Of a stretch of 64,000 nt of DNA, positions 24,734 through 44,723 are shown piece by piece. The notes below the pieces were generated by a model. That model saw only the letters and a program-made list of their open reading frames with translations. It made no database searches and had not been told where the DNA came from. This stretch comes from Eunapius fragilis (lineage: Eukaryota > Porifera > Demospongiae > Spongillida > Spongillidae): positions 1,423,350-1,487,349 of the forward strand of contig OY811990.1 in the NCBI GenBank assembly GCA_963681505.1. The letters are read 5' to 3'. Made by a program: the position numbers and the translations under genes. Position 1 is the stretch's first letter, and each line of letters begins with the position of its first letter.

Positions 24734-24879
24734 GAGCATGTCATCTTGTATAGGATATACTGCTGTATATTCTGGACCAGGATATACTTCTGTATATCCA
24801 GGATATATAGCAGGTAGAGCAGGTGGAGCTAATCCTGCAGCTGGACATGGAACCACTCCTGGACCTGGACCTGAAACAG
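24734..24879 (+). CDS. Candidate Gly/Tyr/Pro-rich exon
   Basis: Acceptor TTATAACCCAG precedes an open 146-bp stretch and donor GTGATT follows. The frame reads G-Y-T-A-V-Y-S-G-P-G-Y-T-S-V-Y-P-G-Y, then A-G-R-A-G-G-A, G-P-G-P-E-T, a low-complexity pattern like extracellular or tail regions. Upstream and downstream exons are not found. Repetition of GGATATACT-CTGTATAT words could also explain the periodic translation. Confidence 0.3.
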
Positions 24880-25174
24880 GTGATTTAAACAACCATTAGT
24901 TACCCTCCACTGGCAAGTGAAGCCATATAATACATCAGACAAAGATTACATGTACCCACTGATCTCACGCTATTATCAGATAAACCACAATACGAATACG
25001 TTGTCATCAGCAACTTTGATACTATTAGATATAAATTATGCACCACAATACACATTAACATTATTACGAAATTGTTGTCAGCGAACAGCGTGCACATATT
25101 TCAAACAACAGCACGGAGAGAGATGCAATATCTTCCGCTGTAACTGTTGATATTTTAGCGATACACTTTTCATG
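24880..25174. other. No gene recognised
   Basis: Overlapping short ORFs on both strands, no support. Confidence 0.35.
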
Positions 25175-25298
25175 CTATAATTTATGTCCAGATCCAACAT
25201 TCATGGTGTAACGCACCTTCGGGGTGGTCGCTTTGATGGTCCTTTCAGTAGCGCGCTTGACACCTTGTCGTGTCTTGTATTGCACTCGTTTGGCATAT
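25175..25298 (-). CDS. Candidate basic terminal exon
   Basis: On the minus strand, acceptor CACCTACAG precedes Y-A-K-R-V-Q-Y-K-T-R-Q-G-V-K-R-A and T-T-P-K-V-R-Y-T-M-N, ending at TAG. The peptide is strongly basic and reads like coding sequence, but there is no homology or partner exon. Confidence 0.22.
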
Positions 25299-25935
25299 CT
25301 GTAGGTGTACGAGTGGCTAGTTGTTGCCGGGTTTTTTTTCTGTAAGGGCGGTGGTGTGGGGGAGACACATTCTAATTGGAGCCTCTTGCTTCACATTATC
25401 TGCTGTAGACTGTATACCGTAGTATCTGATCGCGTATGTAGTTCCACCGACAGAATTCGAAAGTTATGCTATATAAGAAGCTATAGTATAGAAATCAATT
25501 CGGTCAAAACAATTATATGCGATAGTGTCGGGTACTTACGTGTATGGTAGTTTTGGCTTTCATTTCAAGCTGCGTAACGAATGATAAGAGTTGTAGAGTA
25601 ACGCACAGGCGTCATGCAGAAAATGATACCTTGAATATTCGTCAGGAGCCTTCCTATAACGTTATCGCTGCTCCATTCCGTTTCTCAACCATTTGGCATT
25701 ATGGTTGGACATTTATACATGGAGCCGTAGGGACCCGAAAAGGCTCTTGGATTCAGTGCGTATACCTCTTCCACAGCGTGCGGGAATATTAAGAATTTGA
25801 ATCACGCCCACGACACGTGGCTATTATTGCATTTAAAAATAGCTAGCTGATGTAATTGGGTATTTTTAACCGAATACCAAATGAGGTACTATTCGCTTTA
25901 GTTAATTGCCCGAACAGTTAGGCGTCTAACAGACC
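25299..25935. other. No gene recognised
   Basis: Unique sequence with two 80-codon plus ORFs lacking any motif. Confidence 0.35.
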
Positions 25936-26296
25936 CCCGAAGATAACCTGTGGACGCATCCTGAAGCGATTGGTACACTTGGCGTGCTTTACAAACGTTC
26001 CTGTCGTGAGTTATACTCTCCGGAAGGAAGAAGAAGAAGAATAAGAAGCCGACGGAGGAGAAATTTTAGGTGGGACTGGGTACGGACGATGGGGACGAGT
26101 ATTTTTGTTCTCTAAAAGTACACCGTCTTGTGACACAAATACAACGCAGAACTGTTGTCCTTTTTTATATCGCTCGAATGCCACTAAGAGCGAAGTGACC
26201 CGATTCTTAAATGTCCCGCTAGACGTGAGTGACGTTTTTTTAATGACATTCATGATACTGTTGGATTCCTATATGGAACCTACTCGCGTAGGTTCC
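25936..26296 (-). other. Hairpin-plus-conserved-block module, copy A
   Basis: On the minus strand it begins with hairpin GGAACCTAC-GCGA-GTAGGTTCC (26296 to 26275), then ATATAGGA, then ATGAATGTCATTAAAAAAACG. The ATG opens an 80-codon ORF (M-N-V-I-K-K-T, then Q-Q-F-C-V-V-F-V-S-Q-D-G-V, E-N-K). A TTCTTCTTC tract and GTATAACTC ... ACCAATCGCTTC follow. The same order occurs at 42108 and 43266. Its role is unknown; at the other two sites it is the leader of a Helitron first exon. Confidence 0.7.
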
Positions 26297-26395
26297 GATA
26301 GGCGTACAGATAAAATATCAAATTTTCTATCGTCCAAATACATGTAATTGGATATCATCCCGTCATAGAATGGTTGTCATGACAATTTACTTGAC

Positions 26396-26595
26396 NNNNN
26401 NNNNNNNNNNNNNNNNNNNNNNNNNNNNNNNNNNNNNNNNNNNNNNNNNNNNNNNNNNNNNNNNNNNNNNNNNNNNNNNNNNNNNNNNNNNNNNNNNNNN
26501 NNNNNNNNNNNNNNNNNNNNNNNNNNNNNNNNNNNNNNNNNNNNNNNNNNNNNNNNNNNNNNNNNNNNNNNNNNNNNNNNNNNNNNNNNNNNNNN
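26396..26595. other. Assembly gap, 200 Ns
   Basis: Exactly 200 N, a conventional scaffold gap of unknown size. It sits precisely between the two copies of the 12.16-kb duplication. Confidence 0.99.
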
Positions 26596-27030
26596 CCATA
26601 TAGTACAGAGCAGTCGTTCAGGTTGGTAACTTGAGCTAGCTCGATCGATAAGTACGTTAGATCAGTGTGTGCATGTGCGCGCGCGCGCGTGTCTAGATGT
26701 ACTCAACTGTTGTAATGGTATCAATACGTTGTACTTTGCTTCTGGGTGCATGCAGCATGGTCTGTGATTACGTGTCTTAAATGCTTTTCTTCAAACCAGT
26801 GCTATAATGGAACACCGAATATAAAATGGCAGAATATACCAATATTGGCAATAAATAATGAGTGCGTGCGTAGGACAAATGGTGTTCATTCTTCTATGAA
26901 CGGAACTAAAAAAGACTATGATCCACTTGTATACATGTAAGTGTCCAGTTGCAATTCTATACGGGAATGAATGAATTTGTGTATTGTGTATGTGTGGACA
27001 CCAACATGCACTTTTGACCTATATGCATTA

Positions 27031-27128
27031 GGTCACTCCGAACTGCACTTTAGTTTCCTGTCCACCCTTCCTCGAAAATATTTAGCATGTGGTGGGGATG
27101 GAAAACTAAAGTCGACTTCGGAGTGGCC
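27031..27128. mobile_element. Tourist-like MITE, copy B
   Basis: Same element and TTA flanks as 14667-14764. Confidence 0.75.
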
Positions 27129-27498
27129 TTACACCTGCTCTGTGATATGTGTGAGCTTGTGTATGTGCTATGTGTGTGCTGTGTATATTACAAGGTTTCT
27201 AGGTGCACAATGACTAGTTTCACATGCGTGCTAGGACTTTGCCAATAGACAACAGTCCCCATCTTCCACCCCTGAATAGTAGAAATGGACTTGGGATGAA
27301 TATATATGTGTGTTCCAAATGTGGATGTTGATGTATGCATCATTTCATAGTCATGCATACACATGCATACCAGAACACTTTGCACATTAAAAGACACCTC
27401 CATAGTGTGTTCAAGTCAAACCACTGTCAAATGCAAAGCAATTAAAATCAAATAGCACGTACAATGAACAAATGATATTGGGGGGGGGGGGAGCTTCT

Positions 27499-27966
27499 TC
27501 AATCTCTTAATAAATTACTAGGAAACCTAGAAAAAAAACACAAGGTACTCCTTGAATGACCGGTGTTTGGTAGATGCACACACTTTTCACATATAGCTGA
27601 CAGTGGGACAGCTTCAAAGTTATCCACTATTTTTGCACATAGATAGCATGATCGGATGGCATCGACAACATCATCTGCCAGATGTAACACATTTTTCAAA
27701 CCGTCATTACGCAACAATGGTTTTTTCATCAGCACTACTAGTGAGCCATTGAGGTGAATAAACTTGGTGACAATACCAGCTCTAAGTTTTCCTGACTGGG
27801 AACGATACAATACAGCAGAATTATACCTTGTTTTTCCGTTTATGTCTTCTGCATCAATTGTCATTTGCTTGTGGATCACTCTTCCCACAACTGAAACAAT
27901 TGTTGTGTCCTGTACAGTGCTATGTCCCATGTAAGCATTTATTGCCTCAGCACCCTTCACTCCCAC
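27499..27966 (-). CDS. Unidentified transposase-like ORF, copy B
   Basis: Same as 15137-15604 except Asp for Asn in the V-V-(N/D)-A-I-R segment. The reading frame is equally intact. Confidence 0.45.
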   Translation of the reverse strand: MGVKGAEAINAYMGHSTVQDTTIVSVVGRVIHKQMTIDAEDINGKTRYNSAVLYRSQSGKLRAGIVTKFIHLNGSLVVLMKKPLLRNDGLKNVLHLADDVVDAIRSCYLCAKIVDNFEAVPLSAICEKCVHLPNTGHSRSTLCFFSRFPSNLLRD

Positions 27967-28211
27967 TTTCCAGATTTCATGGCACTTTTCATCACTGCTG
28001 TTATTTGAACAAAAAGGCTATAGTGGAGAACCCATGCCATCACTTGATTTCCTTGAGTGAGTTGAGAAATATTAGGCTCATGCATTTGCTACATAATATC
28101 GTGCATTATCATGCTACCTTTCCAGGTTTTGTAATCACATATGGGGCTGGGTGTTCAACTGATTTCATTTGGAATCAGTACACTTTGTAATCGATATTGT
28201 TCCATTCACAG

Positions 28212-28390
28212 TGACAATACAAGACAGATTTCAGATTCCTATTAAAGATGAAGAAAACAACTGGAAAGAGATAGTGGGCAAACTTAATTCTAAGTGCCGG
28301 AATCTAAGAGCGAAGTTTAGTCTCACCGGCAAGAACAAGGAAGCAGCCACTGATCTGGACACAGAGAACATAGATACACCAATCATATGA
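28212..28390 (+). CDS. Unidentified terminal exon, copy B
   Basis: Identical to 15850-16028, with the same acceptor and an AATAAA at 28478-28483. Confidence 0.42.
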
Positions 28391-28961
28391 TCCAGAACTG
28401 CATGCTTCCTACATGTATCTATATAAGCTGTTGCTTTGTAACTTGTCTATCATACTTTTTTTGTATATGTGCAAATCAATAAACCTTGTGACTGACTCCA
28501 TCCTCCTACAATTTATAGTACTGATCATCATCATTACAAAGCAAATATGTTATACGATATACAAAATAAAGCATCAGTAAACGTCCGTAAACTCTTCAAG
28601 AACCAATGAAATGCTTGCTGCTGAGAACAACAGAGGCTCCCTACAAAACCAAAAGTGTGACTGCATGTGTGTGAACAGAGCACATTAAGTACACACCTCT
28701 TCATTATAAACACACCTCCACACCTCTTCATTACATACACACAGCTCCCATATGAAGATGGAGGGAGCCTACATGTAAGTTGCATGTCGTGTGCTGTGCA
28801 GCAGTGTACATGTAAGCATGTAGATCGATAAAGATGGTAAGGGTGTATATGAATGTGCAGCTGTAGATATCAGGTGATGAGGAGCACATGTTCTGTGCAA
28901 TGAGTCTTCAGCTGTGTTTACATACAATGTTGGGGAATGTGTGTTACAACCAGTCCTCACA

Positions 28962-29132
28962 CCTGACCCCTCCCTACTATCACACCCCTCCCTACATCAC
29001 ACCCCTCCTTACATCACACCCCTCCCTACTATCACACCCCTTCCTACACCACACCCCTCCCTACACCACACCCCTCCCTACCATCACACCCCTCTCTACC
29101 ATCACACCCCTACCTACTATCACACACCTCCT
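28962..29132. repeat. CACACCCCTCCCTAC minisatellite, copy B
   Basis: Same array as 16600-16770. Confidence 0.9.
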
Positions 29133-29334
29133 ATTAATGTGTTCTCCAATAAGTTACATGATAACACGCTTAAGTCATTATGCCCCCCCCCCCCCCCCCC
29201 CCTCCCCCTTCCCCGACATATCACCCATGCATATACTATTCTAACCCTGTCCTGAGAGTAAACTTAGGGGGAAAACTTCACTGCAGTCTGGTGATTAGTT
29301 ACACAGAAGTCATTTGGCATTTACCCCCCCCAAA

Positions 29335-30871
29335 CATATGACCCAAGTATGCTACCTAAACATTACATAGTGTCCTAATGATGTTCCAGAGTAGGGGAAA
29401 CACTTCACTGTCTATTGTTTAAGTCAGGTGATAGAAATTTTTAGTTACTCGAAAGTCACTTACCCCCCCCTCCTCCCTCAAACATATGACCCATGCATAT
29501 TGCTATGCTACCTAAACATTACATAGTGTCCTAATGATGTTCCAGAGTAGGGGAAACACTTCACTGTCTATTGTTTAAGTCAGGTGATAGAAATTTTTAG
29601 TTACTCGAAAGTAACTTACCCCCCCCCTCCTCCCCCAAACATATGACCCATGCATATTGCTATGCTACCTAAACATTACACAGTGTCCTAATGATGTTCC
29701 AGAGTAGGGGAAAACACTTCACTGTCTATTGTTTAAGTCAGGTGATAGAAATTTTTAGTTACTCGAAAGTCACCTACCCCCCCCCCCTCCTCCTCCCCCA
29801 AACATATGACCCATGCATATTGCTATGCTACCTAAACATTGCATAGTGTCCTAATGATGTTCCAGAGTAGGGGAAAACACTTCACTGTCTATTGTTTAAG
29901 TCAGGTGATAGAAATTTTTAGTTACTCGAAAGTCACTTACCCCCCCCTCCTCCCTCAAACATATGACCCATGCATATTGCTATGCTACCTAAACATTACA
30001 TAGTGTCCTAATGATGTTCCAGAGTAGGGGAAACACTTCACTGTCTATTGTTTAAGTCAGGTGATAGAAATTTTTAGTTACTCGAAAGTAACTTACCCCC
30101 CCCCTCCTCCCCCAAACATATGACCCATGCATATTGCTATGCTACCTAAACATTACACAGTGTCCTAATGATGTTCCAGAGTAGGGGAAAACACTTCACT
30201 GTCTATTGTTTAAGTCAGGTGATAGAAATTTTTAGTTACTCGAAAGTCACCTACCCCCCCCCCCCCCCTCCTCCTCCCCAAACATATGACCCATGCATAT
30301 TGCTATGCTACCTAAACATTGCATAGTGTCCTAATGATGTTCCAGAGTAGGGGAAAACACTTCACTGTCTATTGTTTAAGTCAGGTGATAGAAATTTTTA
30401 GTTACTCGAAAGTAACTTACCCCCCCCCCCTCCTCCCCCAAACATATGACCCATGCATATTGCTATGCTACCTAAACATTACATAGTGTTCTAATGATGT
30501 TCCAGAGTAGGGGAAACACTTCACTGTCTATTGTTTAAGTCAGGTGATAGAAATTTTTAGTTACTCGAAAGTCACTTACCCCCCCCCCCTCCTCCCCCAA
30601 ACATATGACCCATGCATATTGCTATGCTACCTAAACATTACATAGTGTCCTAATGATGTCCCAGAGTAGGGAAAACACTTCACTGTCTATTGTTTAAGTC
30701 AGGTGATAGAAATTTTTAGTTACTCAAAAGTAACTTACCCCCCCCTCCTCCCCCAAACATATGACCCATGCATATTGCTATGCTACCTAAACATTACAGT
30801 GTCCTAATGATGTTCCAGAGTAGGGGAAAACACTTCACTGTCTATTGTTTGAGTCAGGTGATAGTTACACA
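29335..30871. repeat. 157-bp tandem array, copy B
   Basis: Same unit order and variants as 16973-18510. C-tract lengths are nearly unchanged, as expected if both copies derive from one molecule or allele. Confidence 0.95.
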
Positions 30872-31305
30872 AGTCATTTGGCATTCCCCTCCCCTTCCCC
30901 AAACACACCTACTACAAAAATTTTAGTATCAATACCATGCAGCTATTAGTGAGTCCCTAACTCCCGATCACAACTCTCCCAACAACAGAGTCACTGAAAA
31001 GACCTGCCTGTGTAACGTAGCTCATGCCTCTACAACACTGTAATTTGTCAGTAGGTGTGCCTTTTTAAGATATCAATAACAACTTTAATCAATAACCATA
31101 CAACTGTATAAAAAAGTGTGTTAACAAGGCAATAAGAATGGAGCCACAGTTTCACAATGAAAATGTTCATATAATGACAGCTGCACAGGATTTCTCATTT
31201 TCTCATTGCCATAATCTATTGAATGAGAAGAAGAGGGTTAATGAAATGGCCCGGCATATAACATGCACATTGTCAATGGGTTGGTTCCCAGTGGCAGGGC
31301 AACAT

Positions 31306-31306
31306 G

Positions 31307-31374
<68 letters not shown>

Positions 31375-31401
31375 ACACATACATACACACACACACACAA
31401 C
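31306..31401. repeat. (CA)n microsatellite, copy B
   Basis: Matches 18945-19040. Confidence 0.95.
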
Positions 31402-31945
31402 CCCAAGTAGGTCCAGTACAAACCAATGTGCAATGTCAAGCTGGAGTGATTATGGGGGACATGCACACATCTGCATGTCTGCATTGCCACCGTATCCCCC
31501 CTGGGCTTACAAGAGCACAGGGAATACTGTTATACATCAGATGTATTTAAAGGTGTGGTATGGGGACAAACTCATGGGCGTGTCTATAGCGGGGTGGGGG
31601 GGGGGGGGGGGGGGTGGGAGAAAGAGCTTAGTCCCATCCCCCGCCTCCCCTCTTAGGGCATCCACCATCTGAAGAGAGTGCAGGTGTCAGTACAATATTT
31701 GGGTGGTCACAATAAGCTTCTCTAGCAAGCTTTGCTAGCAAGCTATACATGTAATAAAAAATAGAGACCTCACAAATCCACAATCAGATAAAGGTACATA
31801 TAGGCAGCTGGAACAAACAAATACACAACCACATATGTACATAGGCTTTGAATATTAACAAACAGTAGTTCCTTCTCACACTCAGGGCTCTTTGGTAGAT
31901 CTGGCTTGACCCTTTGCACTATTGGAACACAACTGACAAAAAAAA

Positions 31946-32101
31946 CCCTGTGGGTGTGGTGAGGAGTGTGTGGATTGTCGGCTATGTTCCTTAACCCCTC
32001 ACACTCCTGGAAAATACACCACACCCACAGGGGTCTTTTATTAGGCTATGTTACATAACCCCTCACACCTTAACCAGAAAGTTCACCGCACCCACAGGGG
32101 T
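31946..32101. mobile_element. Small foldback with duplicated right end, copy B
   Basis: Matches 19588-19743. Confidence 0.6.
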
Positions 32102-32170
32102 CTTTTTAGTCAGATATACTAAAGAGATTCTCCTAATATACATCCCAGGAAAAAGAGCCCACACACACAC

Positions 32171-32360
32171 CAGGGATTTACCGCTTCCACCCCCTACCCA
32201 CCCCCTGGTTTGCCACTAATTTGACTAACCCACCCCCTGGTTTACATGCTAAAACTCCATGGCATACCATGTAACAGTGCAGAGGGAAGACTTTCACCCC
32301 CCTATATTTTTATGTATTCCAAAACCCACCCCCTGTTGCAAACTTGGCGGTAAATCCCTG
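32171..32360. mobile_element. CAGGGATTTACCGC MITE, copy B
   Basis: Same 190-bp element as 19813-20002, with the same CA flanks. Confidence 0.8.
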
Positions 32361-32362
32361 CA

Positions 32363-32421
<59 letters not shown>

Positions 32422-32422
32422 G

Positions 32423-32461
<39 letters not shown>

Positions 32462-32628
32462 ACAAACACACACACATGCACATATATTCATGCCCAGGGT
32501 ACAGACCATACCCAGATGAAACAACTGACTAGTGTTTAGAGATATGTAACTCTTTCTTGCATAGGGCTCAGACCAACCCAACCGTTGGAGAGATTCTCCT
32601 AATATACACACACACACATATATATATA

Positions 32629-32687
<59 letters not shown>

Positions 32688-32689
32688 TC
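32363..32689. repeat. (CA)n tracts, copy B
   Basis: Matches 20005-20331. Confidence 0.8.
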
Positions 32690-33665
32690 CTGCCCAGGGT
32701 ATAGACCATGCCCAGATGACATAAATGACTAGCGGCTAGAGATATTTAACCCAGGGTACAGACCAACCCAAAATTCAAATAATCAATCTGTAATTTTGCA
32801 CTGTAGGGACAGTATGACTCTCAAAGTCCATGTTTTTGTACTGTGCTTCCTCTTTTGTAAAAACTAAAGTTGTTGCATCCTTGTGATTAAGTCAACAATT
32901 TTAGTATCAATACCATGCAGCTATTAGTGAGTCTCTAACTCCCTATCACAACTCTCCCTCACCATCCTATAGCCCTCTACATGTACATGTCTCTCCCTCC
33001 CCACTTATCCCTATGGACATCCAGCTCCAGGGATCGAGTGTGTGTAGAGGGTGGGTATGTACAAGAGTGTGAATGAGTGTGGATGTGTGAATGAGTGTGG
33101 GTGTGTTCAAAGAGGGTGTGTGTAGTGAAGGTGTGTGTAGAAAGGGTGCAGAGGATGTGTGCATAGTGACAGAATGTACAGTGGGTGTGTGACAAGGGAG
33201 TACATGTATGTGTACAAGGGGGGCGTGAATTAGATGGAGAGAGAGAGTGGGTATCATCACACCCGCCTAAATCTGAACTGATATACTGGTTACCAAGTTT
33301 GCCTCAAAATGGCTGGCTGAAGACTAATAGGGAATGTAAGTTAACCTTATCAGTCATTAAACACAACCTCAGGGCCATAAACTCTCAACCCTGCACATGT
33401 ATGTGTGGGTGCCCATTGAAAAGGGCATAATGGATAATGAATGATCTATTAAGTGAGGAGAGGGTAAATGAAATGGCACATATGCCAATAATACAACATC
33501 AATAGATGGCATGGGCACACATACACACACATACACACACGCATAGACACACACACACATATGAAATGCATCCAGTGTCATCATGTGTGAAGGGTGCTGT
33601 GTTTGGGAGGGGTGCTGTGTGTGAGAGGTGTGCTTTGTGTGGGAAGTGTACACATTAATGTCAAA

Positions 33666-33959
33666 TGTCTAAGGTCCTGGGCTTGCTCCGAGGTGCATAT
33701 ACATGTATGTACATCGCAAGGTACGCAAAGCGAGTTTTTTTTTTGGCATTATAGTGAAGTTTGACAGCTTTACCACATTGCATAAGAGCAGCAAAAGGTA
33801 TTAGGCCTTCAGAGCAGCTTCGGCCCAAACAGATAAGGTCTTATGCAATGTGGTAAAGCTGTCAAACTTCACTATAATGCCAAAAAAAAACTCGCTTTGC
33901 GTACCTTGCGATGTACATACATGTATATGCACCTCGGAACAAGCCCAGGACCTTAGACA
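33666..33959. mobile_element. Foldback element, copy B
   Basis: Same 294-bp foldback as 21308-21601, including the arm mismatch. Confidence 0.92.
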
Positions 33960-34657
33960 ATATAAATAACACATACACACACATCCCACAGCCCTATGCG
34001 GCCATACATTTTGTGGACAAAAGACATACCATAGAAGTATTGAAAAAGTGGCGTAATGCCTTAGCAACCACCCTTGACAACCGACAACATTATAAACTTT
34101 GCACTACGTGTTAACAAGTTGAACTTGTCGCCATTTAAAGGCCATACATGGAATGAAGTACCTTTGTTCTATTAGTAGCCAATGTCACATGGACTAATAT
34201 TCTAACATGTACGTACTGGTATGGTCATGTCATATTTATATAAAGGTATATATCCACGATTTTGTTACTTTGTTTGGCGGTGGAATTGCTTTCACAATCT
34301 GGGGTGCAATGGATAGCCTGTGCTCTTGAACAATAAGAGTGGGGTGTGGACCTTCTTGTAGATACATTGATACGCTCTCTGTGTGGGCATGGATAGTCAG
34401 GATAGACTCTACCCCCTGTTAACCTAGGACACCAAAGCCTGCACCCATCCACCTTGCCCATTGTTTTAGATAAGATCAAGCAGCCTCATGTGTTAGACAA
34501 CCCTACACTTCTCAGGTGTGCCTACCCATATGTTATGGGAAGGAAGTGACTACTATTGTGACCCCAATCCATTGGTCCCTCCAGCTGTTCCTGTTCTCAG
34601 CATTTTAAGTGGAAATGGACCAGGGACATTTTTAACTTAATGGGTATAAATGTGAAG

Positions 34658-34926
34658 CCATCTCCCCTTTCCTCCCTCTTTTGCCCTCCTCTCCTCCCTC
34701 CTCCCTCCCCTCTCCTCTCTCCCCTCTTGCCCTCCTCTCCCTCCCCTCTCCCTCCTCCTCCCTCCCTCACCACCCCTCCCCCTTCCTCCTTTTCGTCTCC
34801 TGCTCCTTTTTCTCCCTCTCCTCCCCTCTTCTTCCCTCCCCCACTCCTCCTCACTCTCCTCCCCCTCTCCTCTCCTCTCCTTCCTACAACTCCCTCTCTC
34901 TCTCCTTCTCCCCCATTCTCCCTTGA
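34658..34926. repeat. Polypyrimidine tract, copy B
   Basis: Matches 22300-22568. Confidence 0.95.
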
Positions 34927-36237
34927 TGTTACACTTTCCCTTCAATCTATTTACTGCACTACACTAATGCCAGTCTGTTGGTTCTCATTGTTTACACTTA
35001 TAACTACATTGTCAAAGTACTGCTCAGACACGTCACAAGCACCTACAGTGGGTGCCATCAGGGGGTGTATACTTATGGTAACTCGGAACATTGATAGACT
35101 GCCCTCCTTATCTTCCCTGTAGCTACCAAAAGGCTTCCATAGACTATGCAACATTTCTGGAGCTGGTCTCTGTGGTGGGCACTGTGTGTAATTCTGTGTA
35201 TTGTATCTGTGGTATTGTGCGTAGTTGACGATGCGGCATACCATCCGTCTTGAGAATTTGTCTGTGCTTGGTAAGCTACCCCTCTCCCTTACGATATCCA
35301 TATATAAATTGGCTGTGTGTGATATGAAGAGTGCGCATAATAGTATAGTCTCTACTATGATGATACACCAGCTAAATGGGAGGGATCAACGGGTATAAAA
35401 TGAACAAGGCGCATCTAGCTGCAATTGGTTTACGGTATTGTCTAATTATGGACCCTTTTGTCCACCCGCAAAGGGCTATGATCCACAAAAACACACACGC
35501 TGATCTATTAATTAGCAAAAGGCAACCCCAAGTAAGCAGAGGTCATTGGACCAGTACAAACCACTGAGAGGGGGATCATGGTAAGGGAGCACACATACCT
35601 CTCCACTTTCCTGCAGTACAAATTAGTAACAGAATAGTACAGAAAATGTTCAATGACTTATCTGTGCCCATACCCCCCCACTTCCCTTGTAGTGTGAAAG
35701 GGTTGGGTTGAGGAGAAGGTTGGTATGTGTAGGGAAAGGGGTGGAAAAGGGTGGTGGGTATGGATCAGAAGTGTTACCAGGGAGAAGGGTGGCATGGATT
35801 GAAACTGTATCAAGGCATCATAATAAGAATGGATCCCCTTTCGTACAATGCACATCACATCAGCATAATGTCCGAATTGTACACCCCACCTACATATATG
35901 AACGCTGTACCCTGCATAGGCATTTGGGTTACTTACAGAATGAAGATGAGGACAGGGAATACATTTTGTAGTGCTACACATGTATCTCGAGATTTCCAAT
36001 AGTCACATTCAGGGTGCTGTTTTGGACAAGCAGGTTTGGCTAAGTACTGCCTGGTAGACAGCATATATGTACAAGTAAATGATCAAACTCACCACCCCAG
36101 TGTCCTTCCATTGTCCCACATGTAAGTAAAAACGTACAATGTAAAGTAGTAAATGTAAGTAGACCAATGTAAGGCGAATGTGGAAATGTACTCCGTGTGT
36201 GTATGTAAAAGCCAACGTGACAAAATTACTACCTTAC

Positions 36238-36451
36238 CCCATTTTAAAATCCAGATTGTTCCTCTGCTTTCGCGGTCTGTCCAGACTGAAACAGTGCTTT
36301 CATGCAGGTAGCGCACCAGCTCAAGCACCTGCTTACTAGTAGAGACATAGTTGAAGCACCATATGCAGATAGCGGCTTCGCTGTGACACATGATACACAT
36401 CACATAAACATATAGATCGACACAATATGCCTGCTCGTTTACCGCTTCCAT
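36238..36451 (-). CDS. Unidentified Cys-rich first exon, copy B
   Basis: Identical frame and GTAAGG donor to 23880-24093. Confidence 0.38.
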
Positions 36452-36617
36452 ACAGAGAATGTCTACATATGTAGCGCGAACCGAGTCACCATCGATATGT
36501 GCTACGGCTACGTCCGCTCCCTCGTTTAATAGTAACTGTTAATTAGAGTTCCGCTAGATCCTCTCCGACCAGCTCCATCTTAAATACAAGGGAATATTAA
36601 AATCCAGACCTACTAGT

Positions 36618-36902
36618 ACAAGTGATAAAAACATTCTCTATGCGAGAAGGTTGGTGGTATATAGGAATCAAAGGCGGTGGTGGTGTAAAAAGCAAGGGAA
36701 CAAGGATTGTGATTGAAAAGGAAAAATGAAATAGACCTATATTAGCACACACAGTTAAACATGACGACATGCTGCTAATATAGGTCTATTTCATTTTTCC
36801 TTTTCAATCACAATCCTTGTTCCCTTGCTTTTTACACCACCACCGCCTTTGATTCCTATATACCACCAACCTTCTCGCATAGAGAATGTTTTTATCACTT
36901 GT
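36618..36902. mobile_element. Foldback family FB1, copy B
   Basis: Same as 24260-24544. Confidence 0.95.
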
Positions 36903-37091
36903 TTCCTACATTTTTTGGTAGATTTAGTATTGTATTTAGTTCTTGAAAAGTAACCATGTAGCAAGAATGTCAAATGACAGTTTTATTTTAGAATCTCGTG
37001 GCCATGCAATTTTTTGAGGTGTGGGTGTACCATTAAAACACACAGTATTACTATTTAAACAGTAAGTACAAGTATTTCATTTATAACCCAG

Positions 37092-37237
37092 GAGCATGTC
37101 ATCTTGTATAGGATATACTGCTGTATATTCTGGACCAGGATATACTTCTGTATATCCAGGATATATAGCAGGTAGAGCAGGTGGAGCTAATCCTGCAGCT
37201 GGACATGGAACCACTCCTGGACCTGGACCTGAAACAG
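37092..37237 (+). CDS. Candidate Gly/Tyr/Pro-rich exon, copy B
   Basis: Same as 24734-24879. Confidence 0.28.
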
Positions 37238-38293
37238 GTGATTTAAACAACCATTAGTTACCCTCCACTGGCAAGTGAAGCCATATAATACATCAGACAA
37301 AGATTACATGTACCCACTGATCTCACGCTATTATCAGATAAACCACAATACGAATACGTTGTCATCAGCAACTTTGATACTATTAGATATAAATTATGCA
37401 CCACAATACACATTAACATTATTACGAAATTGTTGTCAGCGAACAGCGTGCACATATTTCAAACAACAGCACGGAGAGAGATGCAATATCTTCCGCTGTA
37501 ACTGTTGATATTTTAGCGATACACTTTTCATGCTATAATTTATGTCCAGATCCAACATTCATGGTGTAACGCACCTTCGGGGTGGTCGCTTTGATGGTCC
37601 TTTCAGTAGCGCGCTTGACACCTTGTCGTGTCTTGTATTGCACTCGTTTGGCATATCTGTAGGTGTACGAGTGGCTAGTTGTTGCCGGGTTTTTTTTCTG
37701 TAAGGGCGGTGGTGTGGGGGAGACACATTCTAATTGGAGCCTCTTGCTTCACATTATCTGCTGTAGACTGTATACCGTAGTATCTGATCGCGTATGTAGT
37801 TCCACCGACAGAATTCGAAAGTTATGCTATATAAGAAGCTATAGTATAGAAATCAATTCGGTCAAAACAATTATATGCGATAGTGTCGGGTACTTACGTG
37901 TATGGTAGTTTTGGCTTTCATTTCAAGCTGCGTAACGAATGATAAGAGTTGTAGAGTAACGCACAGGCGTCATGCAGAAAATGATACCTTGAATATTCGT
38001 CAGGAGCCTTCCTATAACGTTATCGCTGCTCCATTCCGTTTCTCAACCATTTGGCATTATGGTTGGACATTTATACATGGAGCCGTAGGGACCCGAAAAG
38101 GCTCTTGGATTCAGTGCGTATACCTCTTCCACAGCGTGCGGGAATATTAAGAATTTGAATCACGCCCACGACACGTGGCTATTATTGCATTTAAAAATAG
38201 CTAGCTGATGTAATTGGGTATTTTTAACCGAATACCAAATGAGGTACTATTCGCTTTAGTTAATTGCCCGAACAGTTAGGCGTCTAACAGACC

Positions 38294-38654
38294 CCCGAAG
38301 ATAACCTGTGGACGCATCCTGAAGCGATTGGTACACTTGGCGTGCTTTACAAACGTTCCTGTCGTGAGTTATACTCTCCGGAAGGAAGAAGAAGAAGAAT
38401 AAGAAGCCGACGGAGGAGAAATTTTAGGTGGGACTGGGTACGGACGATGGGGACGAGTATTTTTGTTCTCTAAAAGTACACCGTCTTGTGACACAAATAC
38501 AACGCAGAACTGTTGTCCTTTTTTATATCGCTCGAATGCCACTAAGAGCGAAGTGACCCGATTCTTAAATGTCCCGCTAGACGTGAGTGACGTTTTTTTA
38601 ATGACATTCATGATACTGTTGGATTCCTATATGGAACCTACTCGCGTAGGTTCC
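38294..38654 (-). other. Hairpin-plus-conserved-block module, copy B of the duplication
   Basis: Same as 25936-26296; the hairpin is at 38633-38654. Confidence 0.7.
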
Positions 38655-38773
38655 GATAGGCGTACAGATAAAATATCAAATTTTCTATCGTCCAAATACA
38701 TGTAATTGGATATCATCCCGTCATAGAATGGTTGTCATGACAATTTACTTGACACGTTGACGTCATTTCTGTC

Positions 38774-38834
38774 CGGCGATTAATCGCCAGAATCGCCAAA
38801 TATCGCGATATTATCGCGATTATTTCCACCCGGG
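38774..38834. repeat. Right terminal repeat of the large intronic unit
   Basis: Read on the minus strand it starts CCCGGGTGGAAA and carries ATCGCGATAATATCGCGAT, matching the left terminus at 14051. It ends in GGCGATTAATCGCC, itself a palindrome. Confidence 0.75.
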
Positions 38835-39124
38835 TTTGGGTAGGATTTGAAGGAATGGTCTATAGAATGACAAGTGGAGGAGCAAGGGGTTGGAGGGTGA
38901 CGAATTCATCTGGGCTTCTCTGAGCCAAGGGCAGCTCAAACTGATGTCAGAAACAGGATATGCCCAACCTACAAAAAGCTAGCTAAAGAATGCATCGTAC
39001 GCTAATGCTATGCTTACTGCACAACTCTATTACCTTCTTAGAATATGCATTGTTGTGATGTGTATGTGTATACAAACCTCACCAAGTCTGTATAATATAA
39101 ACCTTGTGTGTCCAGCTCTACACA
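38835..39124. other. No gene recognised
   Basis: Unique sequence between the unit terminus and the SWIM-type remnant. Confidence 0.4.
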
Positions 39125-39572
39125 TAACATAGCACCCCTGCAATGCAGGTACAATTTCCAGTAATGATGGCGCCTGTTTTCTTGATCACTCAAATCCAGG
39201 CCTCGTGTGGTTTATCGTTTATCCGCTGTGATGGTGTTAATTTTGCCATGAGGATACTATTTTCATTACCAATGTCACGATGATAGTCTGTTCGAACCCA
39301 ACCACTGACATGGAAGTAGTGAAAACGTAACATATTTTTAGTTATAAGCATCCCCTCATGTAATAATTGTACGGCTGTAGGGCTTTAAAAGCCTTCAGCT
39401 TCTCTCTGGTGAATTCTCCAGAAGTGTTCATCAAATACGTATAAACGCGAGGGAACTCTATTGGAGGCCCGCGCGAGAGATCATCGATCCATAATTCAAC
39501 ATTTAAATTGTTAAGAACTTCTACACTCTTCTCCTTGCTGCTCGCCATATAGACACTGTAGTGTTCGCTCAT
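39125..39572 (-). pseudogene. SWIM/YqaJ-type protein remnant
   Basis: The minus strand starts with M-A-S-S-K-E-K (about 39550) and continues F-P-R-V-Y-T-Y-L-M-N-T and L-K-A-F-K-A-L-Q-P-Y-N-Y-Y. After a stop the neighbouring frame gives V-S-G-W-V-R-T, T-P-S-Q-R-I-N-D-K-P-H-E-A-W, another stop, and C-T-C-I-A-G. This order is the N-terminal part of the SWIM zinc-finger proteins, often with a YqaJ-like exonuclease, that are expanded in cnidarian and sponge genomes. Two frame disruptions and loss of the second half of the SWIM finger mark it as a broken copy. It lies antisense within intron 1 of the Ig gene. Confidence 0.65.
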
Positions 39573-40087
39573 ACTGTTTCAGGTCTCTTCAGCGAATCAC
39601 TGTACGTAACTCATTTCTTCTGTATTCGACACCACGATGTTATTTATTAGCGAAGCACACTCAGCTACTCAAAAATTTGCCCACCAAAATGGCGACCAGC
39701 AAAGAACAATAATTTCACAACAAACTTGAGTCAAAGGTAACAATTTTATACGATAATGGTCTCAAGCCGCAACCGGTGTATTCCCGTAATCTCAAAGCTA
39801 TGACTTGAAAAAGCACGAAATGTGGGTCACAAAAAGTACGATTTGTAATGAGCTCTAAAAGTACATTATTTTACACCATTCAAAAGGTATACCGTATTAG
39901 CCAATTATCTGAATTGTGTCCAGCCGCAAACCGGCATGGCACCTCGGTTCTGTTGATAACTGTGCATATGCATGTCAACGTATATGCATGCCATTTAAAG
40001 TACAACATATTTGCTGTGTGTACATGTACATGTAACTATTCAGAGGACATGAATTTTTGTGACCGCTGGCTCTATTCCATACTTCAG
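39573..40087. other. End of inferred intron 1
   Basis: AT-rich; a 90-codon ORF at 39848 lacks support. Confidence 0.4.
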
Positions 40088-40426
40088 TTCAGTGCTCATT
40101 TGGTGCCACTATTCTAAATAGTCCTCAGGACCTTGATGGTCTTAATGATAACTCCAGTGTGATAGTAGCGGGATCAGCCATCCAGCTCTTCTGTTCAGCC
40201 AGTGGACAGTTCACTGCTCCCCACATACAGTGGACCAGGAACAATATCACCATTCCAGAGACTGCACAGTTGCCTCATCTGATGGTCAAGAGTAGGACAG
40301 AGAACAACACCATCACTTCTTCAATCCTCACTATCTATGGTTTCTCTTCAAGTGATACTGGAAGCTATCAGTGCAGTGCTTCGGAAATCAACTGCAGTAG
40401 TTTGAGTTATCCATTACTGCTAATAG
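40088..40426 (+). CDS. Ig receptor exon 2: first Ig domain
   Basis: Acceptor ATACTTCAG opens a frame containing one complete Ig fold: I-Q-L-F-C-S-A-S-G (first Cys), I-Q-W-T-R (core Trp) and S-S-S-D-T-G-S-Y-Q-C-S-A (D-x-G-x-Y-x-C). It ends at donor G/GTTAGT. Both borders are phase 1, the norm for Ig-domain exons, and there is no start codon in context, so an upstream exon is required. Several N-x-T/S sites suit an extracellular domain. Confidence 0.8.
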
Positions 40427-40482
40427 GTTAGTATCATGCAGATCTGTGGCTTCAATCAAATCACTCACCCTTTACTCTGCAG

Positions 40483-40863
40483 CTATCAATGGCTTCAACA
40501 TGTTGAAGATAATACGAGAACTTAGTAGCTCCACATCAGACAGAACATATGTTCCTGTTGGAAGTTCAAATATTTCAACCACTGGAACCTTTCTGAGATG
40601 TTCAGCTGAACAGCCTTCTTCATCCTCTCTTGCTGCACCCAGTGTGATATGGTTGAAGGATGGGACACAGCTATCTGGTGATGGGGTTAGGGTTGTTGTG
40701 ACAACTACCAATACCACTATCATTGGGTCAAACAGGACTGTAAGCTTTGTCCGTATCTTCAACTTCAGTCAGTCTGATGCTGGAGTGTACCAGTGTGTGT
40801 TCTATGACACTCCATCCCAGGGAGGAGAGGTCATCACCACTAGACCATACAAAGTGGACACAG
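40483..40863 (+). CDS. Ig receptor exon 3: second Ig domain
   Basis: Acceptor TTTACTCTGCAG and donor G/GTTACA, phase 1 on both sides. The Ig motifs are T-F-L-R-C-S-A-E, V-I-W-L-K-D-G and S-Q-S-D-A-G-V-Y-Q-C-V. A 30-residue stretch rich in Ser/Thr precedes the domain. Confidence 0.82.
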
Positions 40864-40940
40864 GTTACAAACAATCTAATTTACATGAATAATGTGGTAA
40901 TTAATGGAAGTATTCTTTTTTTAATTTTAATTTCTATTAG

Positions 40941-41231
40941 GTCCACTCTGCTTAACTGCCCTGGTCCCCTCATCAGTTACCCTCTGTCCCCCTGAGCCTC
41001 TGGTCCTCCAAGTGGAGGCAGGGGGAGAGTATGCTGGTATACAATGGACCAGGACACCAATAGCTCTGAATGTCAGCAATGGTGAACTGGTAGACTTCCA
41101 GCAGATATTTGTGAGGACTGTGACATCAGAGGAGGACTGGGGACAATATTCAATTGTCTTGTCAACTCAAGGAATAAATACTTCACTGCACTTTACAAGT
41201 GTGAACATTTCTAATTGCAGTGGAACAAACG
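40941..41231 (+). CDS. Ig receptor exon 4: degenerate third Ig-like domain
   Basis: Acceptor TTTCTATTAG and donor G/GTAAGA, phase 1 on both sides. It has T-L-C-P-P, the core Trp in I-Q-W-T-R and E-E-D-W-G-Q-Y-S-I, where the second Cys of the D-x-G-x-Y-x-C motif is replaced. The fold is likely kept without the canonical disulfide. Confidence 0.75.
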
Positions 41232-41315
41232 GTAAGATGCCATGGGTATCAGTATTATGCCTCTTCTATAAATTCCAACCTCCCTTGATCACTTTTATTT
41301 CCCCTACTTTTGTAG

Positions 41316-41487
41316 CTATGGCAATCCCAAGTAGCCATACGTCTTATGCGACCGTCACCGTGGGTCACATATTGCCACCAATGTTGCCTGTATACGTTTC
41401 TGTGGCAGGAGCCATCCTCATCATGGCCGTGGGTATCGCATCTGTGATGATTATTATTATATTCAGATGGCGCAAGAAGCATAAAAG
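41316..41487 (+). CDS. Ig receptor exon 5: transmembrane segment
   Basis: Acceptor TACTTTTGTAG (phase 1), then a short stalk, a hydrophobic helix (V-Y-V-S-V-A-G-A-I-L-I-M-A-V-G-I-A followed by M-I-I-I-I-F) and a basic stop-transfer R-W-R-K-K-H-K-R. It ends in phase 2 at G/GTATGG. This fixes type I topology, with the Ig domains outside. Confidence 0.82.
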
Positions 41488-41545
41488 GTATGGGTGACCC
41501 ATAATTTATCCATGTACTGTGCTGACCAGCGCACATCCCGTGTAG

Positions 41546-41963
41546 GATAGAAATAGCTGCGGCCATGAAGTGTGCGCAAAGATCAGATAGGGCTGACTCC
41601 AATGTTCTGCACGCCACAGATTGGACGCTCCCGCAACGTTCCCATGGGGACCTCAAGGCGGAGGACCTTGAGGACACTTTGGTATACGACTACGTGCGCG
41701 TTGCCCCACAACCCAAGCAGTATGCGTTTGGTAATGGTACCAACGGAGGCGATGAAAGGTCACGTGTCCCAGCCTGGGCCCACTTGAGTGCCGCAGTAGG
41801 GTCTCTCCCCTCTGACCACGCCTTACCAGCTGACCGGGACATGGAATACAGTGTCCCAAGCCATCCAATGGCACTAAATGCGAGTTCTAACGTGCAAGAT
41901 GGTGCAGCGGGCGACTATTCATTCCTGAACTCGAATGATAGCTTTGACTACACGAATTTTTGA
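41546..41963 (+). CDS. Ig receptor exon 6: cytoplasmic tail
   Basis: Acceptor CCCGTGTAG continues the frame in phase 2 and runs 139 codons to TGA at 41961. The tail has tyrosines in signalling-like contexts: L-V-Y-D-Y-V fits the ITIM pattern (L-x-Y-x-x-V), D-Y-T-N-F near the C-terminus fits a Grb2-type Y-x-N site, and M-E-Y-S-V-P and G-D-Y-S-F-L are further candidates. No kinase or other enzyme domain is present. With exons 1-5 the protein would be about 550 aa. Confidence 0.78.
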
Positions 41964-42107
41964 TACCCACGCATGTATTTTGGAAAACTGCACGTGATTG
42001 ACTTTATAGATCAACATCTTATAGTGTATGTTATTTTGAACAGCGCGTTAATTATAAAATACTCTTATCTGAACCTGAACATGCGCTTTAATACCAAACT
42101 ACTAGTC

Positions 42108-42612
42108 TGAACCTGCGGCAGCAGGTTCAAAATAGGAATGATTGAGGGTTGATGAATGTCATTAATAAAACTTCACTAGCGTCGGGACAACGGAGAAACG
42201 GATCGCGTATCTCTTTATCGCGATGTAATGAGGGTACAACGATCTACAGTTCTACGTTGGTTCTGTGTCATAAAACGGTGTGGTTATAGAGAAACAAACA
42301 ATTTCTTGTTTCTCGTGTCAAGTCCTAAAATAATTCTTGGTCGTCGTCGTCGTCTTCTAATTCTTCTTCTTAGGAAGGTATAACTCGAGCTACGAACGAT
42401 TTTGAAGAACGGCAATAGTACCAATCACTTCGAAATTTACCGGCACGTTATCCTTACATGTCATATAGACACACATATATCAAGTTCCAATTAATAATGA
42501 TATATAATAGATTTTTATTAATAATTTTAGGCAGTATAAATACTCTAACCTGCATTGGTGTTCCTATCGCAGTTTAGTTGTTACTTTGGCTAGTGAAGTT
42601 GTTTTTCTAAAA
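42108..42612 (+). other. Hairpin-plus-conserved-block module C, Helitron leader
   Basis: Hairpin TGAACCTGC-GGCA-GCAGGTTCA (42108-42129), then AAATAGGA, then ATGAATGTCATTAATAAAAC and the downstream landmarks of the family (AAACGGTGTGGTTATAGAGAA, TTCTTCTTCTT, GTATAACTCGAGC ... ACCAATCACTTC). The short ORF of copies A and B is interrupted by stops here. An AATAAA at 42164 could serve the upstream Ig gene. The broken Helitron first exon follows. Confidence 0.7.
42535..42542 (+). promoter_or_regulatory. TATA box of the broken Helitron copy
   Basis: TATAAATA lies 78 bp before the ATG at 42613, which would give transcription start near 42566 (TCGCAGTTT, initiator-like). Confidence 0.5.
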
Positions 42613-43243
42613 ATGCCTTCACGTAATCAAAAGAAGAGATCTAAGCAACGAGCGGAATACCTCCAAAAGCAAGACGAGAACATAGCTAAAGCCCGAGTGC
42701 TCTACAAGCCAATCCAGAAAAAAAGAAGACCTCTGTACGCGACAGCTACAAGGCCGATCCAGAAAAGAAGAAGGCCTCTGTACGCGACAGCTACAAGGCC
42801 GATCCCGAAAAGAAGAAGGCCTCTGTACGCGACAGCTACAAGGCCGATCCCGAATAGAAGAAGGCCTCTGTACGCGACAGCTACAAAGCCGATCCCGAAA
42901 AAAAGAAGGCCTCTGTACGCGACAGCTGCAAGGTCGATCCCGAAAAGATGAAGGCCTCTGCACGCGACAGCTACAAGGTCGATCCCGAAAAGAAGAAGGC
43001 CTCTGTACGCGACAGCTACAAGGCTGATATTGAATATAAGCGATCTGCTTAAAGGCGGCAATATGAAGAGGACCTCGAGGAGAACCGCGCTGCTAAAAGG
43101 CAGAAATACGAGGACAATTCAGCTACCATTAAAGCATCTGAAAGGAGTCGGTATTGGAATGACCCTGCTGTCCGATTGGCTAAAGGTGCTGCCGAGAGGA
43201 CGCGGTACCGCAGGGGTCACAGAATTACCACTACCACCCAAAG
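42613..43243 (+). pseudogene. Broken Helitron first exon
   Basis: Starts M-P-S-R-N-Q-K-K-R like the intact copy at 43933, also preceded by AGTGAAGTTGTTTTTCT. After about 32 codons the natural frame shifts near 42708. The rest, read in the next frame, is seven or so 45-bp repeats coding V-R-D-S-Y-K-A-D-P-E-K-K-K-A-S, then an in-frame TAA near 43049 and a tail ending at the same ACCCAAAG/GTATGT donor. Exon 2 is absent: 22 bp after the donor the next module begins. It is a truncated relative of the downstream Helitron, clearly diverged in repeat sequence. Confidence 0.8.
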
Positions 43244-43265
43244 GTATGTTATGGCATGTTGTATC

Positions 43266-43932
43266 GAGAGTTACGTTAGTAACTCTCATATAGGATTTGA
43301 CCCCGATTATGAATGTCATTAAAAAAACGCGACCCGCTTCTAACAAGACTCCCGACGAGCGGATGGCTTACCTTGTTGTCGTCGTCGTACAAGAAGGCAA
43401 CAACAAGCAGTTTCGTGTTTGTTTGATGTCACAAAACCGCGGGGTTGTAGAGAACAAAACAATTTTTGAAACTCGTACCCAGTCCCACGTATTTCTCGTT
43501 CTTCTTCTTCTTCTTCTTGTTCTTGTTCTTGACCACGCATAACTCGGGATAGGAACACTTTTAAGAAATGAAAATCACACCAATGGCTTCAGAATTCGTT
43601 GGCATTTTCGCTTCTGTGGTCAAAACGTCTCGAGGCTACATGACATATATCGGTGGTTGTGTTAGCAAATCACGTATAGTTAAGCTTACTGCACTGACAC
43701 GACTCGGATAGGTCATACTTCGCTCTTTATACGAAGTACTAGTAGTATACATCAGATGTAATCGAATGTGTACGGTCTGGGCACTACACATAGTGGTAAT
43801 TAACTGTGGCATGTATCCGGTCTTGCACTACATGTTTTTAATAACGTGCACGTGCGTACTATAATCATTCTTGTGCTTCGATCGTTGTTGGTTTGACGGT
43901 CTTTGTAACTTAGTGAAGTTGTTTTTCTCAGA
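43266..43932 (+). other. Hairpin-plus-conserved-block module B, leader of the intact Helitron
   Basis: Hairpin GAGAGTTAC-GTTA-GTAACTCTC (43266-43287), then ATATAGGA, then ATGAATGTCATTAAAAAAACG. An ORF of about 80 codons (M-N-V-I-K-K-T, then K-Q-F-R-V-C-L-M-S-Q, G-V-V-E-N-K) crosses a (CTT)n tract, followed by CATAACTCGGG and ACCAATGGCTTC. It ends 5' of the Helitron start codon. Confidence 0.7.
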
Positions 43933-44573
43933 ATGCCTTCACGTCAGGAAAAGAAGAAAGCCAAACGACGAGCAAAGTACCTCAAAACTCGAGATGACGT
44001 ATTAGATTCTGCCCGAGCGAGCTACAAAGCAGAGCCTGAAAAGAAACGGGCCTCTCGAAACGCAAGGTATCGAGCAGAGCCTGAAAAGGAACGGGCCTCT
44101 CAACGTGAGAACTATCGAGCAGAGCCTGAAAAGAAACGAGCCTCTCGAAACGCAAGGTATCGAGCAGAGCCTGAAAAGGAACGGGCCTCTGAACGTGTGA
44201 ACTATCGAGCAGAGCCTGAAAAGAAACGGGCCTCTGAACGTGAGAAGTATCGAGCAGAGCCTGAAAAGAAACGGGCCTCTGAACGTGAGAAGTATCGAGC
44301 AGAGCCTGAAAAGAAACGGGCCTCTGAACGTGCGAAGTATCGAGCAGAGCCTGAAAAGAAACGGGCCTCTGAACGTGAGAAGTATCGAGCAGAGCCTGAA
44401 AAGAAACGGGCCTCTGAACGTGAGATGTATCGAGCAGAGCCTGAAAAGAAACGGACCTCTCGATGCGCCAGGTATCGAGCGGGGCCTGAAAAGGAAAGGG
44501 CTGCTAAAAGACAACGATATTGGCAGAGTACCGAACGTGCTTGCTTGGCGAAAAGAGTTAAGGTCACTCAAAG
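43933..44573 (+). CDS. Helitron RepHel-OTU, exon 1 (charged repeat N-terminus)
   Basis: ATG opens M-P-S-R-Q-E-K-K-K-A-K-R-R, followed by about eleven 15-residue repeats near R-E-K-Y-R-A-E-P-E-K-K-R-A-S-E (45-bp units), a diverged last repeat and a donor CAAAG/GTATGT at 44574 in phase 2. The repeats are strongly basic/acidic and predicted helical, and may act in nucleic-acid binding or assembly. The start is supported by the equivalent ATG and flanks in the broken copy at 42613. The intron is 150 bp. Confidence 0.85.
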
Positions 44574-44723
44574 GTATGTCGTACTTGTGCTTGTACCAGT
44601 AGCTACCTACTCTTACTACATTTGTACGTACCTTTAGTGCGTGTGTTTTTAACACATAACTATTGTAATTATGTAATGTATAACTGCTGATAATTTTACT
44701 ATTTATTTTGTTTACCACTGTAG

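Follow-up and report, generated by a model that had tools for sequence, protein, structure and literature searches.

A 9-4-9 hairpin at the 5' end of Helitron-like elements in the sponge Eunapius fragilis

A stretch of 64,000 nucleotides (nt) from the sponge Eunapius fragilis (assembly GCA_963681505.1, contig OY811990.1, positions 1,423,350 to 1,487,349; hereafter the window) carries several copies of a hairpin with a 9-base-pair (bp) stem and a 4-nt loop, followed by a conserved block. This hairpin module makes up the very 5' end of a Helitron-type rolling-circle element and is arranged as A/TC-(9-4-9)-ATATAGGA, the slash marking the junction with the flank. It forms the left end of Helitron-like transposons and their short derivatives, and we consider it quite likely that it folds as DNA and acts as a lineage-specific handle for the predicted HUH nuclease domain of the Rep-helicase encoded by the large elements.

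Hairpin copies and element ends

The first-pass annotation of the window had listed three hairpins, and all of them were found at their positions and with their stems. The downstream words were also present at the three loci, namely ATATAGGA (AAATAGGA at 42108) and then ATGAATGTCATTAA. That list was incomplete, as a fourth, identical copy on the minus strand (38633-38654) had been missed. The latter is the twin of the copy at 26275 and lies within a duplication of 12.16 kb whose two copies are 99.93% identical and flank a 200-N gap, therefore the two are not independent. The duplicated stretch itself (14232-26395 and 26596-38753) could be a false assembly duplication. In total, seven perfect 9-4-9 hairpins were detected in the window and four of them belonged to the module. 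The hairpin at 58913, which is TA-rich and also has GATAGGCG downstream, was judged by eye to be unrelated. The module hairpins are:

43266..43287, plus strand: 5' terminal hairpin of the lineage B element, GAGAGTTAC(GTTA)GTAACTCTC; fold as single-stranded DNA -8 kcal/mol, z -3.98
42108..42129, plus strand: 5' hairpin of the lineage D element, TGAACCTGC(GGCA)GCAGGTTCA
26275..26296, minus strand: 5' hairpin of the short lineage C element, GGAACCTAC(GCGA)GTAGGTTCC
38633..38654, minus strand: 5' hairpin of the twin lineage C element

Within families, the likeness between copies started about 2-4 bases before the hairpin, while the sequence upstream differed from copy to copy. The exceptions were the window twins and L002/L006, the flanks of which were repeats as well. 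The three bases preceding the hairpin were A in 48, T in 50 and C in 49 of 53 rows, a tally in which at least one row (L024 minus) is a palindrome taken from the wrong side. The other end of the element was a palindrome of 273-297 bp terminating in CTTG. The following base was T in 49 of 49 rows; these rows were selected on ACTTG with several C copies counted twice (labels C and G), and the homology break at CTTG was also visible without this selection.

The insertion site of the lineage B element was found uninterrupted, as GTTGTA/TTAACAT, in three family D copies (L033, L037 and L016). A fourth comparison (flanks of L001 in L037) agreed except for C instead of A before the junction, and a fifth (flanks of L025 in L028) was compatible, though located in a T run with gaps. 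These empty sites therefore indicate insertion between A and T of an element starting with TC and ending with CTTG, without target duplication. Whether a copy was coding or non-coding, its hairpin lay 2 nt in from the element end. Copies were mostly about 620-2,040 bp long, with three of 3.3-5.0 kb and one of 13.25 kb (rows assigned to neighbouring elements left out), and the short elements without a Rep-helicase carried the identical kind of ends. Near position 1557 of L006 (minus strand), a partial second 5' hairpin, consisting of one arm, the loop and part of the other arm, directly preceded the full one, as if the end had restarted. The elements in the window are:

43264..56516, plus strand: complete Helitron-like element of lineage B, 13,253 bp, 5'-TC...CTTG-3', between A43263 and T56517 (empty sites L033, L037, L016)
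42106..43263, plus strand: 5' part of an older element of lineage D, into which the lineage B element inserted
24261..26298, minus strand: short lineage C element, 2,038 bp
36619..38656, minus strand: twin of the lineage C element in the duplicated 12-kb stretch

The module was then counted in the genome (219 Mb, 24 contigs). The pattern ATC-N22-ATATAGGAWT matched 2,831 sites against 9 for the reversed-pattern control, and ATGAATGTCATTAA occurred in 2,273 exact copies against 6, an abundance far from chance. The stems of these genome-wide copies were mostly paired, as would be expected if the structure proposed in the first-pass annotation were real: among the first 100 sites listed, all nine Watson-Crick pairs were present in 88, eight in 10, seven in one and two in one, the last being an unrelated sequence.

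Stem pairing, loop class and the Rep-helicase

Stems were compared on representatives (eight arm types, then 11), that is, on one set of types rather than on every copy. In the alignment of 11 arm types, six of the nine pairs were changed on both sides, two were invariant and one varied on one side (T-G pair). All 99 cells were paired (100%) compared with 80% in shuffles, and none of the 500 shuffles reached this value. When the partner arm was slid by 1-3 columns, pairing fell to 26-47%. The covariation score was 0.68 against 0.24 in shuffles (reached by 0 of 500), while six pairs changed on both sides were reached by 7 of 500. Eight arm types gave the same picture. These shuffles and shifted pairings address the covariation suggested earlier, though relatedness is not fully removed by them. 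Among 52 sites with a pyrimidine at the second stem place (control 5), no new paired stem was recognised by eye; these sites were mostly decayed known stems or pieces of the 3' palindrome, and some were unexplained.

The loop was GNNA at 2,673 of the 2,831 sites (94%), with GNRA at only 617. The first G and the last A were kept, the middle bases seen were TT, CG, TC, GC, AT, CT, GA and GT, and the third loop base was mostly a pyrimidine. The loop-closing pair was C-G in 10 of 11 arm types. According to the excerpted text of PMC8373063, which cites Nakano 2002, DNA loops of the GNNA and GNA types have very high stability and are the counterpart of GNRA loops in RNA; part of PMC4686876 also reports them as stable DNA loops. 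Since the loops are GNNA and mostly not GNRA, the sequences favour a hairpin folding as DNA rather than as RNA. In the literature, with Helitron paired with tetraloop, GNNA, triloop or mini-hairpin, none of the matches listed mentioned Helitron.

The first-pass annotation had left two options for the hairpin, an RNA element controlling translation of the downstream frame or a DNA hairpin used by a transposase; the second is supported and the first is not. The frame in question starts at ATGAATG in the following block:

43309..43542, plus strand: conserved block starting ATGAATGTCATTAA, open in 10/12 rows of lineage B but broken in the consensuses of A, C and D

A hairpin in the transcript could act on this frame, as its end lies 21-22 nt upstream of the conserved ATG and the frame spans 74-77 codons in those 10 of 12 lineage B rows. 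In lineage C, it spanned 79-81 codons in 5 of 12 rows, two of which were the window twins. In the consensuses of A, C and D the frame stops at codons 20, 41 and 46, respectively, and that of E carries GTG at the start position. In addition, there is one deep lineage with a changed block and another in which no block was found, yet both have the hairpin, so that the conserved coupling to a downstream frame expected of a cis-regulatory RNA was not observed. The fixed position of the hairpin, 2 nt from the element end, and the loops with their mostly pyrimidine third base also speak against an RNA element, which we regard as very improbable. The DNA hairpin is preferred because its end position is constant in coding and non-coding copies, because the downstream frames are broken and because the hairpin outlasts the ATGAATG block.

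A small protein encoded by the conserved block was rejected in view of the broken frames of the A, C and D consensuses, and the block at 43309..43542 as part of the module is probably non-coding. The frame at 43309-43542, open in most lineage B rows, may represent a small gene that lineage B has recently gained or is losing. About 250-350 bp inside the 5' end, GYATAACTC and ACCAATVGCTTYAG were present in all five family consensuses (A-E) and are a possible promoter or protein site.

The coding content of the large elements was as follows:

44677..50664, plus strand: Rep-helicase frame, 1,995 amino acids (aa) stop to stop, Helitron_like_N with H-x-H, PIF1 helicase and OTU
43909..44637, plus strand: upstream exon frame, charged 15-residue repeats (AEPEKKRASEREKYR-like), no Pfam match
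57140..57502, plus strand (G000:C20:1480489-1480851): N-terminal piece of a Rep-helicase containing a single TGA and 66% to the B protein, probably the remainder of the D element interrupted by B

The Rep-helicase frame was intact (H-x-H at residue 828, Walker A at 1283, NDYN stretch present) and matched PF14214 (3.4e-24) and PF05970 (2.5e-22) in Pfam. Its helicase part matched PIF1 helicases and Helraiser 7lcc (1.8e-25). No endonuclease domain was detected in Pfam scans of the Rep-helicase reading frame or of six other frames of the element and flank. The earlier remark that two of the hairpins head Helitron first exons holds for 42108 (ATG at 42613) and for 43266 (frame 43909-44637, then Rep-helicase 44677-50664). 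The first exons of lineages B (43909-44637) and D (42613-43245) contain 45-bp tandem repeats encoding charged 15-residue units, the number of which seems to differ between copies.

If the hairpin is the left end of the elements that encode the Rep-helicase, it should be found within about 3 kb upstream of each such gene, and this prediction was tested. The whole genome was searched with 200 Rep-helicase residues, and 150 of the 340 candidates were scored. Among these, groups with nearly full-length frames showed identities of 98-100% (1,995-1,996 aa), about 65% (1,995 aa), 68-69% (1,977 aa), about 51% (up to 2,020 aa) and 49% (1,976 aa). Nine regions were inspected, covering 0.9-2.8 kb before the matched stretch. 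The ATC-hairpin was identified in eight of them, seven with 9/9 pairs and one with 8/9, and in all eight hairpin-bearing loci the stem agreed with the protein group. The 98% group (B) carried stem GAGAGTTAC (two loci) and the 64-65% group (D) stem TGAACCTGC (three loci). Both the 51% group (H; two loci, one with a changed base) and the 49% group (I; one locus) carried stem AGGACCTAC, with the loops GTTA and GATA, respectively. Groups H and I were absent from the starting set, and in them ATGTAGGA replaces ATATAGGA; these are also the lineages with the changed or undetected ATGAATG block. The pattern with ATGTAGGATT matched 255 sites (control 6); of the 33 shown with letters, the majority were AGGACCTAC hairpins, a few belonged to other families and two or three were unrelated. 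By coordinates alone, stem GGAACCTAC was located 1.9-3.4 kb upstream at three loci of the 69% group and AGGACCTAC about 1.7 kb upstream at two loci of the 50-51% group, a biased count, as these five were noticed because they matched.

Elsewhere in the window, frames at 866-4160 resembled by eye a Pao/BEL-type retroelement (reverse transcriptase and integrase parts).

Subterminal repeat and 3' palindrome

The two ends of the elements share a short inverted repeat, and the 3' end is a long palindrome with a small hairpin. The features in the window are:

43288..43300, plus strand: 5' copy of the subterminal inverted repeat, ATATAGGATTTGA
56464..56476, plus strand: 3' copy of the subterminal inverted repeat, TCAAATCCTATAT, 40 nt from the 3' end
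56224..56516, plus strand: 3' terminal palindrome of lineage B, 293 nt, ~130-bp paired arms, fold -154.5 kcal/mol, z -37.5
56487..56499, plus strand: small 3' hairpin TTCTC(ATA)GAGAA, 13 nt before the terminal CTTG, read from the sequence
24261..24543, minus strand: 3' palindrome of the first C element, 283 nt
36619..36901, minus strand: 3' palindrome of the twin C element, 283 nt

The word ATATAGGA adjoins the 5' hairpin and is followed by a lineage tail, TTTGA in A and B, ATC in C, TTGA in D and ATTG in E. This 5' copy starts 24 nt in, outside the hairpin, and the inverted copy of word and tail lies 39-41 nt from the 3' end. The tail was common to both ends in 33 of 36 rows, a set in which the window twins count as two rows and that excludes one E row and two rows that were reversed or mis-assigned. 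The three non-matching rows were L029 (5' hairpin placed off register), L041 (one base changed) and the plus strand of L048.

In the window, the arms of the lineage B palindrome were identical (1.0) over 134 aligned positions. Among 48 palindromes, the arms of the same copy were 96-99% alike on family average and often identical, with four copies at 86-90%, while arms of different copies were 92-96% alike within and 76-87% alike between families. In 42 palindromes (one window twin dropped), 104 distinct changes were counted, 60 in both arms and 44 in one arm, the latter number being inflated by divergent members (window B, L028). With arms paired across copies, the mean was 9.9 both-arm changes, and the observed count exceeded the maximum of 300 derangements in each of four families. 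The spacer was inverted in L017 and L029 relative to five other copies of family A, in L031 relative to L020 and the window copy of family C, and in L040 relative to L010, L013 and L042 of family D. In this comparison L005 was not cleanly cut, and the L024-minus, window-D and L047-plus rows belong to neighbouring elements. No inversion was found among ten alike B copies or five copies of the second C subfamily.

Polymerase template switching between inverted repeats is said, in the excerpts of PMC8604942, to yield both arm homogenisation and spacer inversion; arms evolving together and flipped spacers are therefore expected from switching between the arms. The aside in the first-pass annotation about repair that homogenises arms looks right for the long 3' palindrome. 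A report of such a Helitron palindrome was not recognised among the literature matches listed. Between the Rep-helicase and the palindrome of the large element, 52001-56000 displayed a strong GC skew (0.326) and several minisatellite-like frames.

Relation to known Helitrons and possible mode of action

Published elements are compared here as they appear in excerpts of the cited papers. The element joins a Rep (HUH) domain and a PIF1-type helicase in one protein and makes no target-site duplication, in agreement with the Helitron superfamily. With canonical Helitrons (Helitron1), including Helraiser (PMC4778049, PMC5876387), it shares 5'-TC, insertion at A/T without duplication and a small hairpin about 11 nt before the 3' end. 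It differs in ending with CTTG instead of CTRR and in having a 5' hairpin, inverted repeats and a long 3' palindrome, none of which is described in those excerpts. According to PMC4778049, some Helraiser insertions and maize Helitrons also end with CTTG.

The first-pass annotation knew of no described element of this form, yet 5' terminal hairpins with compensatory changes had been reported for Helitron2 elements in 2013 (Bao and Jurka 2013, PMC3627910). As here, these elements have hairpins at both ends (at the 3' end, here, the TTCTC and GAGAA arms plus the palindrome), asymmetrically placed short inverted repeats and compensatory changes noted at the 5' end. The placement of the repeats differs. 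In Helitron2 (PMC3627910), the 5' repeat lies inside the hairpin at 0-2 bp from the end, whereas here it is 24 nt in and outside; the 3' repeat is 20-30 bp from the end, whereas here it is 39-41 nt from it, within the ~130-bp palindrome. In FoHeli1 and FoHeli2 of Fusarium oxysporum (PMC5148889), a hairpin likewise comes directly after the initial TC (T[c/a] in FoHeli2), but the loops are 3 nt long, the stems shorter, the 3' end is ATTTT and the target TNAT/T, and the excerpts mention no long 3' palindrome. The printed 5' starts of two Fusarium Helitron2-type elements (PMC5148889) can be read as C-G closed GAA loops, the GNA case. Helentrons (DINE-1/HINE; PMC4067079) resemble the element in their subterminal inverted repeats, 3' stem-loop, many non-autonomous copies and OTU domain. 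They have an endonuclease domain and insert at TT, while here no such domain was found and the target is A/T, which ruled out a Helentron.

A Helitron with a 5' hairpin and compensatory changes is thus of a known kind, but the present arrangement fits neither the strict Helitron1 nor the strict Helitron2 definition. Unusual here are the inverted repeats outside the hairpin and the ~130-bp 3' palindrome with co-evolving arms and a sometimes inverted spacer.

In some Helitron2 elements (FoHeli4/5, Helitron-2_CRe) the gene is reversed, as described in part of PMC3627910 and PMC5148889, and the hairpin could likewise be the right (3') end. Read backwards, the element would indeed present an inverted repeat, then a hairpin and then the end, as at a Helitron2 3' end. 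The forward reading gives A/TC...CTTG/T with a small hairpin 12-13 nt before CTTG, which is the usual Helitron polarity, and we consider the reversed orientation unlikely.

For the preferred DNA hairpin at the left end, the following course may be envisaged. Single-stranded DNA exposed at the element end would allow the hairpin to fold, and the folded hairpin could serve as a lineage-specific handle by which the HUH nuclease domain places its nick at A/TC. The ATATAGGA repeat and its inverted 3' copy would be a probable second contact of the transposase, joining the ends. The small hairpin of TTCTC and GAGAA together with the ~130-bp palindrome might stop the helicase and mark the second nick at CTTG/T, and template switching between the palindrome arms would keep them alike. 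That the Rep protein recognises the hairpin is inferred from the location and pairing of the hairpin, the class of its loop and the agreement between stem and lineage.

Several observations weigh against this explanation. Further pair types were not above shuffles (10 vs 10.6, 412/500), and there are only about seven stem lineages, so that the paired changes represent few independent events. Within lineages, 10 of the 100 listed copies had unpaired or wobble changes and one had a paired change. L052, one of the nine Rep-helicase loci, had no hairpin in its 1.9-kb upstream region. Helraiser, in the excerpts of PMC4778049 and PMC5876387, has a hairpin only at its right end while its left end is still essential, therefore a 5' hairpin is not needed by all Helitrons. 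Moreover, compensatory changes can arise by template switching without selection (excerpt of PMC8794818).

This last point bears on an explanation by mutation bias alone, in which template switching at element replication copies one arm from the other and the hairpin itself is unused. In favour of it, these elements show arm homogenisation and spacer inversion in their own 3' palindrome, and part of PMC8604942 and PMC8794818 describes such switching. At the 5' end, the loop G and A and the nearly constant C-G closing pair were kept while the two middle loop bases varied, no inverted loop was seen among the 100 listed hairpins, and the scarcity of paired relative to unpaired or wobble changes within lineages is also at odds with copying between arms. 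Mutation bias alone is therefore an unlikely account.

A broader reading, which we put forward only tentatively, is that the 5' origin is a DNA hairpin with a changeable stem and a fixed, stable cap (C-G closed GNNA, perhaps GNA in Fusarium) that acts as a lineage-specific key for the cognate Rep-helicase, and that the ~130-bp 3' palindrome is regenerated by foldback or template-switch synthesis during transposition. The rolling-circle models in the excerpts of the cited papers do not contain such a step.

To our knowledge, the choice of the left end by Helitron transposases is poorly understood. With about 2,800 ends from several lineages, five of which were encountered together with Rep-helicase frames, the genome of E. 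fragilis is a natural lock-and-key series. The 3' palindrome with its co-evolving arms and flipped spacers makes foldback synthesis during transposition testable, and the DNA-type loop rule gives a sequence-based way of telling a DNA hairpin from an RNA hairpin. If the broader reading is true, Helitron 5' hairpins would generally be marked by stable DNA loop caps, a feature that could be used for finding them.

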